From the NCBI GenBank assembly GCA_003214175.1, contig QCLZ01000003.1:86001-150000 (forward strand): a stretch of 64,000 nt of DNA, in the 5' to 3' direction. The position numbers were made by a program, and so were the translations under genes. Every line of letters begins with the position of its first letter. Position 1 is the stretch's first letter. Below the pieces are notes generated by a model. That model did not search any database and was not told the DNA's origin. It saw only the letters and a list, made by a program, of their open reading frames with translations. The DNA is from Prochlorococcus sp. AG-418-I20. Lineage in GTDB: Bacteria; Cyanobacteriota; Cyanobacteriia; PCC-6307; Cyanobiaceae. Shown in pieces: positions 9,099-38,273 of the stretch.

Positions 9099-9276
9099 AC
9101 AAATAACCTTTCTTTAATAATAATGGCTGATTGTCATAATGAATAAAAAAAAAGATATATTTAATTCCCAAATACTCACATTTACACACAAATTAAAAAA
9201 AAACCTTTTGTTTTTGGATAAACCTTGGCTTATGCCCCCTTTAGTTGTTAATTTAATCAGAAAAGATGAAAAATTA

Positions 9277-10440
9277 ATGAATATTGAACTTGGTTTGAAC
9301 AGAAAAGTCAGAAGGGCCTATGGTATTGACGAGATAGCTTTAGTCCCTGGGAATAGAACACTTGATTACGATTTGACTGACCCCTCCTGGTCAATAGGTG
9401 ATTTTAAGAGAGAAGTCCCAATCGTAGCAAGTGCTATGGACAGCGTTGTTGATGTCAATACAGCTGTAGAACTTACCAAATTAGGTTCCTTAGGAGTTAT
9501 TAATATGGAGGGAATACAAACACGTTATGAAAACCCTGATGAAATATTAAATCAAATAGCATCAGTCGGGAAAAATGATTTTGTACCGCTAATGCAGAAC
9601 ATATATAGCGAACCAGTTAGGGAGGAATTGATTTTACAAAGAATAAATGAAGTTAAAGAAAAAGGTGGTATTGCAGCATTTAGTGGAACTCCACAAGCTG
9701 CTATTAAATATAAAGAAACACTTAATAATTCCAAAATAGATTTATTTTTCCTACAAGGAACAGTCGTTTCAACTGAGCATCTTGGCAAGGAAGGAAATGA
9801 AACCTTAAATATTAGCGATCTCTGTAAATCGATGAGAGTGCCAATCATCGCTGGAAATTGTGTTACTTACGATGTTGCAAAACTTCTTATGCAAGCTGGG
9901 GTTGCAGGATTGATGGTTGGTATAGGTCCTGGAGCAGCATGTACTTCAAGAGGTGTATTAGGAATTGGAATCCCTCAAGCAACTGCAATTGCTGATTGTA
10001 GTGCGGCAAGAGATGATTATTTTAAAGAAAGTGGTACTTATATCCCTATTATTGGGGACGGCGGAATTGTGACAGGCGGAGATATTTGTAAATGTTTAGC
10101 ATGCGGGGCAGATGCTGTAATGATTGGCTCCCCAATAGCTAAATCCTCAAAGGCCCCAGGTAAAGGTTTTCACTGGGGTATGGCCACTCCAAGTCCCATA
10201 TTGCCAAGGGGTACGAGAATTGAAGTTGGTTCTACAGGATCCTTAAAGCGAATCATTCAAGGTCCTGCTTTGCTTGATGATGGGACACATAATTTATTGG
10301 GGGCTATTAGAACATCAATGAGCACTCTTGGGGCTAAGAATATCAAAGAAATGCAAAAGGTTGAAATAGTTATTGCTCCATCTCTTTTGACAGAAGGTAA
10401 AGTTTATCAAAAAGCTCAACAGCTTGGAATGGGTAAATAG
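9277..10440 (+). CDS. guaB: GuaB-family IMP dehydrogenase, short form without CBS domains
   Basis: 387 aa from the ATG at 9277. The frame stays open upstream to an ATG at 9139, but those 46 codons are Lys/Phe-rich, unlike the family and close to the divergent gyrA promoter, so I chose the internal start. It oxidises IMP to XMP with NAD+ on the GTP branch of purine synthesis. The active-site loop GPGAACTSRG contains the catalytic Cys, followed by the IGDGGI phosphate-binding segment. No CBS pair is inserted, as in the actinobacterial/cyanobacterial GuaB3 type, so a related IMPDH/GMPR activity is possible. Yfr1 follows 84 bp after the stop. Confidence 0.9.
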   Translation: MNIELGLNRKVRRAYGIDEIALVPGNRTLDYDLTDPSWSIGDFKREVPIVASAMDSVVDVNTAVELTKLGSLGVINMEGIQTRYENPDEILNQIASVGKNDFVPLMQNIYSEPVREELILQRINEVKEKGGIAAFSGTPQAAIKYKETLNNSKIDLFFLQGTVVSTEHLGKEGNETLNISDLCKSMRVPIIAGNCVTYDVAKLLMQAGVAGLMVGIGPGAACTSRGVLGIGIPQATAIADCSAARDDYFKESGTYIPIIGDGGIVTGGDICKCLACGADAVMIGSPIAKSSKAPGKGFHWGMATPSPILPRGTRIEVGSTGSLKRIIQGPALLDDGTHNLLGAIRTSMSTLGAKNIKEMQKVEIVIAPSLLTEGKVYQKAQQLGMGK

Positions 10441-10524
10441 TTTATACAAGACAAAATCTTCAACCTTTGTGACTAAATCATCTAAATTGAAAAAATTTCT
10501 CATTAAGAGCTATTATTAAATCAT

Positions 10525-10580
10525 GGGGGTAACCCCATACTCCTCACACACTAAATCGCCCGATTTATCGGGCTTTTTTA
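10525..10580 (+). ncRNA. yfr1: Yfr1 small regulatory RNA
   Basis: A short 5' hairpin (GGGG-TAA-CCCC, 10526-10536) is followed by the single-stranded core ACTCCTCACACACT (10539-10552) and then a G+C-rich terminator hairpin (GCCCGATTTATCGGGC, 10558-10573) with a T run. This is the textbook Yfr1 architecture, and its place between guaB and trxA is the conserved Prochlorococcus location. Yfr1 is an abundant trans-acting RNA that base-pairs through the core with targets, including outer-membrane protein mRNAs and Yfr2-family RNAs. The terminator probably also ends guaB transcripts. The exact 5' end is inferred. Confidence 0.95.
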
Positions 10581-10670: not shown

Positions 10671-10994
10671 ATGTCATCAGCTCAAGCCGCAACTGATTCA
10701 TCATTTGATAAGGATGTACTTCAAAGCGATCTCCCAGTTTTAGTTGATTTTTGGGCACCTTGGTGTGGTCCATGTAGAATGGTTGCTCCAGTGGTGGAAG
10801 AAATCTCAAAAGATTTTGAAGGGAAAATTAAGGTTTTCAAATTAAACACTGATGAGAATCCAAATGTTGCTAGTCAATACGGAATAAGAAGTATTCCAAC
10901 ATTAATGATTTTTAAAGGAGGTCAAAAGGTTGATACCGTAGTTGGAGCTGTTCCCAAAGCAACACTTTCAAGCACATTAACCAAGCATTTATAA
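10671..10994 (+). CDS. trxA: Thioredoxin
   Basis: 107 aa, the normal single-domain length. The redox motif WCGPC has Cys32 and Cys35, and the cis-Pro is in RSIPT. It reduces disulfides of light-regulated and metabolic enzymes in the cytoplasm, fed by ferredoxin- or NADPH-thioredoxin reductase. It starts with ATG 90 bp downstream of Yfr1 and is followed after 11 bp by hisH, so the two are likely co-transcribed. Confidence 0.97.
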
Positions 10995-35832: not shown

Positions 35833-36267
35833 TTAACTTTGCTCTTGATAACAGTTTTGGCAAAGCCCGAAATATTCGAGGGTATGAAACAACAACTGGA
35901 ATTTCTTTGGATTTGTTTTGGGTGTATGAATATCTTTTACAGGGCACCCTTCCATTTTTGATGTCTCACCACATTGAACACAGGTTAAATGATGAATATC
36001 TCTATCTACAGGAGTGTAAAGAACTTCCCCCGTTGGGAGATGCCTAGAACGTATTAAACCATGCTTTATCAGAACTTGAAGATTCCTATAAACAGTAGTA
36101 AGTCCCATTGTTTTTCCGCTTTCTATCAATTGTCTATGCAATTCTTGACCGCTCAATTCATCCTCGCATTTATTAAGTTCTTCAAGAAGTTGTTCTTGTC
36201 TTTTGGTAATGTCAGACTTAGTTACCATTGTTTCCGAAATCTTTTTTTGTCCCGTATTTTTGATCAT
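35833..36267 (-). CDS. zur: Fur-family transcriptional regulator, probable zinc uptake regulator
   Basis: 144 aa. An N-terminal winged helix (about residues 15-80, with TVYRNLQVL recognition-helix sequence) precedes the dimer domain. The structural-zinc Cys pairs are CVQC (near residue 96) and CQNC (near 138), and the sensor His residues are in IHHLTC. Its place inside the znu cluster supports Zur rather than Fur or PerR. It is divergent from znuB by 17 bp, so autoregulation and control of znuB from the same gap are likely. Confidence 0.92.
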   Translation of the reverse strand: MIKNTGQKKISETMVTKSDITKRQEQLLEELNKCEDELSGQELHRQLIESGKTMGLTTVYRNLQVLIKHGLIRSRHLPTGEVLYTPVDRDIHHLTCVQCGETSKMEGCPVKDIHTPKTNPKKFQLLFHTLEYFGLCQNCYQEQS

Positions 36268-36284
36268 ACCGAATCATTCCAATA

Positions 36285-37070
36285 ATGTCTTTTATTAATA
36301 ACAACTGGTGGATTCTTCCTTTGATAGTAACTATTTTCTCAGGGATCTTATGTCCAGCAATGGGAACTGTATTAATAACACATAAACGATTATTGCAAGT
36401 TAATTTAATTTCTCATTGTGTGCTTCCAGGTCTTGCATTAGCCTATGCATTTGAGATTAATCCATCAATTGGAGGTGTTGTTAGTGGCCTTTTAGGTTCA
36501 GTAGTTGCAGAGAGCTTAACAAATAGAAAAAGTGAAAATTATGAAGCAGTTATGAATACTATTCTTGCGGGTATGTTGGGATTTGGAGTTATTCTTATTC
36601 CTTTGCTCGGAATAAGGATCGATTTAGAAACAGTGCTTTTTGGAGATTTGTTTGTCGCAAATTTTGTGGATTTACTTGAAACAATAATTGCATTTTCTGT
36701 ATTTATGCTTTTAATGGCTTTTGGATATGAAAAGGTTGTTTATGTTGGTTTGGATCCAGAAGGTGCATCTGCGAGTGGTATAAATGTTTCTTTTTTGAAT
36801 CTTGCCCTTAGTTTTACAACGGCATTAGTAATTGTAAGTTCAATGCAAGCAGTAGGAGTAATTCTTGTAATTGCTCTACTTTCAACCCCAACTTTGTTAG
36901 GCCTAAATAAGGCTCATAGTTTAAGAATTGCCATGATAAGGTCTTCATTTTTTGGATTATGTATCTCACTTCTAGGCTTTATTCTCTCTATAGTTTTTAA
37001 TCTGTCGCCTGGACCTGCAATTAGTGTTATTTGTGTTGCATCTCTTTTGATTCCTAAACTTCGGAAATAA
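36285..37070 (+). CDS. znuB: Zinc ABC transporter permease
   Basis: 261 aa with about eight helices of the ABC-3 family. The MGTVLITHKRLLQVNLISHCVLPG region (near residues 22-45) and the cytoplasmic GLDPEGASASGIN segment (near 157-169) contact ZnuC. It carries Zn2+ across the cytoplasmic membrane. It is divergent from zur by 17 bp and separated from znuC by the zur gene. Confidence 0.93.
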   Translation: MSFINNNWWILPLIVTIFSGILCPAMGTVLITHKRLLQVNLISHCVLPGLALAYAFEINPSIGGVVSGLLGSVVAESLTNRKSENYEAVMNTILAGMLGFGVILIPLLGIRIDLETVLFGDLFVANFVDLLETIIAFSVFMLLMAFGYEKVVYVGLDPEGASASGINVSFLNLALSFTTALVIVSSMQAVGVILVIALLSTPTLLGLNKAHSLRIAMIRSSFFGLCISLLGFILSIVFNLSPGPAISVICVASLLIPKLRK

Positions 37071-37997: not shown

Positions 37998-38100
37998 TTT
38001 TAAATTACCTACAGAGTAGATTAAATACATCAGAAACTCCTCACACACTTTTTTCTGATAACTTTAAAAGTACTCGATCGCAATGTTTGGGTACTTTTTG
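37998..38100 (+). ncRNA. Candidate sRNA carrying the Yfr1 core motif in a hairpin loop
   Basis: ACTCCTCACACACT (38036-38049) is identical over 14 nt to the Yfr1 core. It lies in a hairpin whose 8-bp stem is ATCAGAAA / TTTCTGAT. A terminator follows: a 10-bp stem AAAAGTACTC / GGGTACTTTT-type with a T run (38066-38099). A TATACT -10 box at 37986-37991 predicts a 5' end near 37998 and a ~100-nt RNA. Unlike Yfr1, the core here is in a loop rather than between two hairpins. Confidence 0.65.
38066..38099 (+). terminator. Terminator of the Yfr1-core sRNA candidate
   Basis: AAAAGTAC (38066-38073) pairs with GTACTTTT (38091-38098), extended by a T-G and a C-G pair, with a 15-nt loop and a following T run. 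No protein gene upstream needs it, which supports an RNA gene. Confidence 0.75.
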
Positions 38101-38164
38101 TATTTTTTGTGATGTGACAGTTAAGATAGAGGTCTATTAGGTATTACATATTTTGAATTTAAGT

Positions 38165-38273
38165 GTGATATTAATGTTGTGTGTAGGAGGAATTGATTTA
38201 TTTCAGTGGAAACAAGGAAACACTCGAATTAAATTAATTTTAAAAGATCTCTCTCAGAGGGATCTTTTTTTTT
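38165..38273 (+). ncRNA. Yfr2-family small RNA
   Basis: Two GGAAACA boxes separated by one base (38208-38214 and 38216-38222) are the Yfr2-Yfr5 hallmark. Upstream, GTGTGTAGGAGG (38179-38190) is complementary to the Yfr1 core apart from one bulge, as expected for a Yfr1-binding RNA. A 12-bp terminator (38242-38273) with nine T ends it. The 5' end is uncertain: a TATTAAT box at 38169 would place it near 38180, and other -10-like boxes lie further up. Which of the numbered Yfr2-type RNAs this is cannot be told. Confidence 0.85.
38242..38273 (+). terminator. Terminator of the Yfr2-family RNA
   Basis: AAAAGATC (38242-38249) pairs with GATCTTTT (38261-38268) and continues through T-G, C-G, T-A and C-G pairs to a TCA loop. 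Nine T follow directly. Confidence 0.85.

Follow-up and report, generated by a model that had tools for sequence, protein, structure and literature searches.

Yfr1 and Yfr2 count among the small RNAs with the widest distribution in cyanobacteria, connecting light, nitrogen and carbon metabolism in a dominant phototroph of the ocean. The window analysed here, a stretch of 64,000 nucleotides from Prochlorococcus sp. AG-418-I20, carries two short elements in tandem, the first with a Yfr1-type core and the second with a tail able to pair with that core. This raises the question of what the two RNAs are and whether their adjacency matters, i.e., whether they form a regulator-partner pair of their own, as an earlier note on this DNA had suggested. 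With a probability of roughly 0.9, the window holds the Yfr18-Yfr5 locus of another high-light-type Prochlorococcus, comprising a core-bearing small RNA and a Yfr2 RNA that would titrate it through an anti-core tail.

Identity of the two RNAs

The presence of two RNA elements side by side on the forward strand was confirmed, as the earlier note had claimed. The first is a Yfr10-family sRNA (RF02362) at 38029-38110 (+), matched over the full length of the Rfam model (positions 1-78 of 78) with 61.3 bits against a gathering threshold of 43 (E = 5.6e-7). The second is a Yfr2-family sRNA (Cyano-1, RF01701) at 38177-38244 (+), also matched over its full length (positions 1-69 of 69), with 74.3 bits against a threshold of 41 (E = 2.8e-11). 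The 10-mer core, allowing at most one mismatch, was found twice in the window, whereas 0.9 matches are expected by chance; motifs by themselves would be weak evidence, and the identification is secured by the family-level scores.

When folded alone, the Yfr10 element is predicted to form two hairpins (z = -3.4). The first has an 8-bp stem closing a 15-nt loop, in which the Yfr1-type core ACTCCTCACACACT (38036-38049, +, from a motif search) is located and in which the core ACUCCUCACAC is predicted to be single-stranded; the second is a terminator-like hairpin with a U-rich tail (38066-38098, +), which was missed by a simple terminator scan of the window. In the predicted fold of the Yfr2 element (z = -2.9), the 5' anti-core tail UGUGUGUAGGAG (38178-38189, +), within which a motif search located GTGTGTAGGAG (38179-38189, +), is single-stranded. 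The double GGAAACA boxes reported earlier are indeed present in the loop of the Yfr2 stem-loop, at 38208-38214 and 38216-38222 (+), as seen in both the sequence and the Rfam alignment. The Rho-independent terminator of Yfr2 was found by the scan at 38242-38273 (+), with 12 pairs and a T tail, none being expected by chance. Regarding the interval of 38036-38273 previously given for the pair, its end agrees with that of the Yfr2 terminator (about 38273), whereas 38036 is the start of the core and the RNA as defined by Rfam begins at 38029.

The first element had been described as a Yfr1-core RNA. The core is there, but the element belongs to the Rfam family Yfr10 and is not a stray Yfr1 core. 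A duplicate of Yfr1 at 38029-38110 was rejected, because Rfam places Yfr1 proper (RF01116, 58.3 bits), the third RNA of the network, only at 10523-10576 (+) in the window and because the core at 38036-38049 sits in a hairpin loop. The 11-nt core and the pairing with Yfr2 are common to Yfr1 and the Yfr10 element, whereas the core of Yfr1 lies between two stem-loops and Yfr1 has its own guaB/trxA locus. In the window it is flanked by the open reading frames 9139-10440 (guaB-like) and 10671-10994 (thioredoxin-like), named by eye and from PMC6778093.

Synteny of the locus

Synteny identifies the window pair as the ortholog of MED4 Yfr18-Yfr5, with the first RNA corresponding to Yfr18, which Rfam files under Yfr10, and the second to Yfr5. 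A genome of the window's genus (G033) has a Yfr10 match at 346661-346738, the coordinates given for MED4 in Table 1 of PMC2518516. The three MED4 units are Yfr10-Yfr2 (346661), Yfr12-Yfr4 (383217) and Yfr18-Yfr5 (972241, the third unit in G033). Only the last of these is located some 28 kb downstream of Yfr1 and has a short gap, hence the assignment. The distance from Yfr1 to the pair, all on one strand, is 27.5 kb in the window and 28.5 kb in MED4, and the gap between the two RNAs is 66 nt and 62 nt, respectively (type A spacing, see below). Order, strand, spacing, Yfr1 synteny, core and tail are thus shared, whereas the core is followed by A in MED4 and by T in the window, the Yfr2 stem sequences are unlike each other and the window unit stems from another genome. 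The other two MED4 units, from which the published 270-nt precursor and pairing were derived (PMC2518516, PMC6778093), have the same architecture as the window pair but are paralogous type B units with a gap of 80-91 nt, located in islands or elsewhere and non-syntenic with the window. Yfr18 was already recorded for strains MIT9301, MIT9515, MIT9312, AS9601 and MIT9215 (PMC2518516). Among the 41 genomes described below, units with a gap of 61-69 nt occur in 40; in 39 of these, a Yfr1 core precedes the unit on the same strand at a distance of 24-34 kb, and the unit of the 40th genome lies on a contig of 4.8 kb. Upstream of the pair, at 35833-37070, the window encodes a Fur-family regulator (PF01475) and, opposite to it, an ABC-3 metal-transport permease (PF00950).

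Conservation of the tandem arrangement

Adjacency was determined in one set of 41 genomes only, i.e., the window's own and 40 with a completeness of at least 99%. These yielded 65 Yfr10 matches, three of them below the family cut-off (in G016, G142 and G174), and 73 Cyano-1 matches. Every Yfr10 match (65/65) lies 61-91 nt upstream of a Cyano-1 match on the same strand, 65 of the 73 Cyano-1 matches have a Yfr10 upstream, and all 41 genomes contain at least one such pair. Because of these counts, independent occurrence of the two elements in most relatives does not apply, and the pair is conserved as a unit; what had been a remark on a few strains becomes a firm pattern for the genus. The gaps fall into two classes, type A (61-69 nt, 40 units) and type B (80-91 nt, 25 units). 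Upstream of two of the eight 'solo' Yfr2 copies, a degenerate core was recognized by eye. In the genus as a whole (266 genomes, many of them incomplete) Cyano-1 was found in 230 and Yfr10 in 219 genomes; among the good genomes of the genus, each family was found in 84 of 87.

Within the 40 orthologous type A units, the base of the window is present in 98.3% of the cells of the Yfr10 loop (38037-38051), in 99% for one side of the first Yfr10 stem and 100% for the other, in 99% for the Yfr2 tail and in 96% for the element GTGACAGTTAAG upstream of Yfr2, as compared with 79-83% in the spacers and 75% farther upstream.

Several genomes carry multiple units: among the matches listed, there are six Yfr10 and six Cyano-1 in G052 (with locus L253 on contig C5), six and four in G066 (with L254 on contig C1), and five and five in G024 (with L134 on contig C1), where two units are about 850 bp apart. 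Viral contigs yielded no match to the exact Yfr2 box or to the tandem pattern, searches that diverged copies would escape.

Predicted pairing of core and tail, and the role of the neighbour

According to the energy model, core and tail of the window pair form a duplex of 11 bp with one bulge and -16.9 kcal/mol, in which U38178-G38183 pair with 38047-38042 and A38185-G38189 with 38041-38037. The 11-bp pairing with one bulge proposed before was thus reproduced, except that the bulged base is U38184 of the Yfr2 tail and not a C of the core; owing to a CA repeat, there is little difference between the two registers.

The strict adjacency of all 65 Yfr10 matches could be taken to indicate a private partnership in cis, with each Yfr10-type RNA tuned to its own adjoining Yfr2. 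Loops and tails of 100 distinct combinations (29 of type A, 71 of type B) were examined in a swap test, in which partners were permuted 5000 times within each type. The underlying set comprised 141 units, with L048 and L050 entered twice (the type B fold counts given below include both repeats); left out of it were four Yfr2 copies with chance-like upstream matches (L125, L127, L128 and L132) and three without any. For type B, the mean energy with the own partner was -15.45 kcal/mol, as compared with -15.50 kcal/mol for permuted partners, and 61% of the permutations were as low or lower. For type A, the respective values were -17.47 and -17.30 kcal/mol, with 6.7% of the permutations as low or lower. 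Furthermore, the 24 distinct type B units with a changed core pair with their own tails at a mean of only -13.44 kcal/mol, whereas type B tails reach -16.75 kcal/mol with the canonical core. It follows that the Yfr2 tail is maintained for the canonical core, also where the neighbour decays; that core is presumably the one of Yfr1.

Two observations fit a private partnership better. In one unit (L122, G003:C3:93926-94158), the core CUCUUCACAC stands beside the tail GUGUGAAGAG, its perfect 10-nt complement, and the own tail ranks first of 71; judged by the sequences, this looks like a compensated pair and is a candidate compensatory change. In g29, a second Prochlorococcus-like genus, the loop of the neighbour pairs more strongly with the tail than g29 Yfr1 does (-18.5 against -16.1 kcal/mol, nine distinct pairs). 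The g29 fit was nevertheless discounted as co-adaptation, because the GUUGAG extension of the tail is also carried by Yfr2 copies that lack this neighbour sequence, e.g., in g12 and g20. In the window's genus, the partner swaps argue against neighbour-specific co-evolution, the unit in G003 being the exception, and a private partnership is considered very unlikely overall. Of the regulator-partner pair suggested earlier, real, adjacent RNA elements, conserved as a unit and capable of pairing, remain, but a private local partnership is unsupported in the genus.

Conversely, the adjacency might be nothing but the remainder of a duplicated two-gene cassette, with proximity being without function. 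The lack of neighbour preference fits this explanation, as do the type B units in which the core decays next to a retained tail and the occurrence of units in one to six copies (this analysis) and in islands (PMC2518516). On the other hand, a mere relic is hard to reconcile with type A units, whose core, stem and tail show the highest conservation (98-100%, against 79-83% in the spacers), nor was any of the 65 Yfr10 matches found apart from a Yfr2. We therefore regard a relic as rather unlikely, though less so than a private partnership.

Predicted fold of a joint transcript

For the MED4 Yfr10-Yfr2 locus, a precursor of 270 nt has been described (PMC2518516). When the corresponding RNA of the window (38000-38273) was folded, the prediction had the core base-paired with the Yfr2 tail (z = -4.9), in a register identical to that of the two-RNA duplex. 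Cis pairing was scored as at least eight core-tail pairs in the minimum free energy structure, for units with at most one mismatch in the core. It was found in 46 of 47 type A units but in only 4 of 141 controls in which the tail was replaced by spacer 11-mers, and in 65 of 71 type B units as compared with 1 of 213 such controls; regarding all type B units, the count was 82 of 94. Spacer 11-mers took the place of reversed tails, which are a poor control because they still pair (29/47 in type A, 28/71 in type B). The core-tail helix is also part of the consensus structure predicted for 40 type A units.

These results are compatible with a self-locked precursor, in which a read-through RNA would pair its core with the Yfr2 tail in cis and keep both silent. 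As long as neither processing nor termination has released the two RNAs, Yfr2 would be out of reach of RNase E, and the amount of free Yfr10-type RNA relative to the locked pair would be determined by the terminator. Besides the fold of the window RNA, the cis pairing in both types and the consensus helix, the known MED4 precursor speaks for such a molecule. Covariation does not support the helix at the window locus, since both of its sides are nearly invariant among the 40 type A units; the Yfr10 hairpin, expected to arise before it in the course of transcription, competes with the helix; and the frequent pairing of reversed tails weighs against it as well. The self-locked precursor is thus a tentative and rather doubtful prediction. 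Slightly more doubtful is its extension to a two-state switch, in which termination would yield a free core RNA and read-through a self-locked core and anti-core, so that termination efficiency would set the ratio of Yfr10 to Yfr2 and account for the adjacency. If true, the predicted cis duplex would provide one concrete reason for the strict co-occurrence. In the available portions of PMC2518516 and PMC6778093, a discussion of a cis-folded precursor was not met.

Published work and proposed function

The tandem arrangement in the window is a confirmed example of one already known, since tandem order, a shared MED4 Yfr10-Yfr2 precursor and pairing with one bulge were published in 2008 (PMC2518516), and mutual binding of Yfr2 with Yfr10 and Yfr1 as well as a role of Yfr2 as antagonist were shown in 2019 (PMC6778093), together with the suggestion that proximity helps the interaction. 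Binding was published for MED4 Yfr1 and Yfr10 with Yfr2 and its homologs, with enrichment in both directions in CRAFD-Seq pull-downs; Yfr2 relieved Yfr1 repression in E. coli (de-repression of GFP), and protection from RNase E and competition with ppa were also shown (PMC6778093). These experiments used Yfr1, Yfr2 and Yfr10, with Yfr5 appearing only as an enriched homolog (PMC6778093), and the available portions of PMC2518516 and PMC6778093 contain no experiments on Yfr18 beyond its detection. Those of PMC7368042 and PMC5069720 hold nothing further on the pair. Identity, conserved adjacency and pairing potential of the window pair were established in the present analysis, whereas MED4 binding, antagonism, protection from RNase E and the precursor are inferred to hold at this locus too. 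New are the strict adjacency counts, the spread of the arrangement to g29, the lack of neighbour preference and, as a prediction from folding, the self-locked precursor.

In the mechanism proposed for the locus, the Yfr10-type RNA would display its core in a hairpin loop and pair with mRNAs to regulate them, and the Yfr2-type RNA, with the anti-core in its single-stranded 5' tail, would titrate both the Yfr10-type RNA and Yfr1; pairing would in turn shield Yfr2 from RNase E. Both RNAs would be small, separate transcripts, and read-through at the Yfr10 terminator could yield a joint precursor. The earlier note had considered local co-regulation or a sponge effect. MED4 Yfr10 is up in darkness and down in high light and long nitrogen starvation, whereas MED4 Yfr2 is up in high light and long nitrogen starvation (PMC6778093); the opposite trends speak against simple co-regulation of the neighbours. 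Other workers have demonstrated that Yfr2 acts on Yfr1 as a sponge or antagonist, both in vitro and in E. coli, albeit in trans (PMC6778093).

Possible promoter region of Yfr2

The element GTGACAGTTAAG (38114-38125, +), located between the two RNAs, has 11 exact matches in eight genomes, ten of which lie directly upstream of Cyano-1; the eleventh belongs to the genome of the window itself and precedes an apparent Yfr2 remnant. The 24 one-mismatch matches in the same genomes are mostly located elsewhere. A GntR protein, PMM1637, binds the motif CGRE1 in yfr2 promoters (PMC6778093), and it is our guess that GTGACAGTTAAG is a candidate CGRE1. A possible -10 region of the Yfr2 promoter, GATATTAATG (38165-38176, +), was assigned by eye; the sigma-70 promoter scan of the window pair gave no site. 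The published 5' end of MED4 Yfr18 could not be matched clearly to any promoter in the window, and for this reason the first RNA is not assigned a start site. At the second GTGACAGTTAAG of the window's genome (L252, G000:C8, about 594-720), TTTGTGTGAGTGAGTTG follows at about the spacing of Yfr2; the Yfr2 stem-loop is absent after it, and an open reading frame starts near 697. By its sequence, this looks like a Yfr2 remnant, with promoter and 5' end now leading an open reading frame.

Occurrence outside the genus

All 26 other genomes of the family that were searched with RF01701 gave matches, and 30 loci were fetched from them, 13 from g29 and 17 from other genera. Of the 13 g29 loci, 11 have a core with at most one mismatch in the 300 nt preceding the Yfr2 box, as do 2 of the 17 others (G276 and G270), the G270 match, with one mismatch and farther off, not being taken as a tandem; in G279, a second Yfr2 also has an upstream core. 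Tandems of a hairpin and Yfr2 related to Yfr10-Yfr2 occur in g29 and, with a single genome in either case, in g12 and g15. As in the window pair, a hairpin loop presents the core and a Yfr2 follows on the same strand, the distance from core to Yfr2 box being 122-182 nt; unlike it, they have other stem sequences and a Yfr2 tail without bulge, GUGAGGAG; the g29 hairpins score at most 38 bits with the Rfam Yfr10 model, below the cut-off. Because the tandems of other genera have this tail, the bulge is, among the genomes examined, confined to the window's genus. A pattern search for the bulge-less form in the named genome collection returned 20 stretches, all from entries labelled Prochlorococcus. 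One g29 region of 14 kb (L225, G293:C1:1375500-1389500) carries clustered Yfr2 copies and Yfr10-like hairpins, some of the latter also located downstream of a Yfr2.
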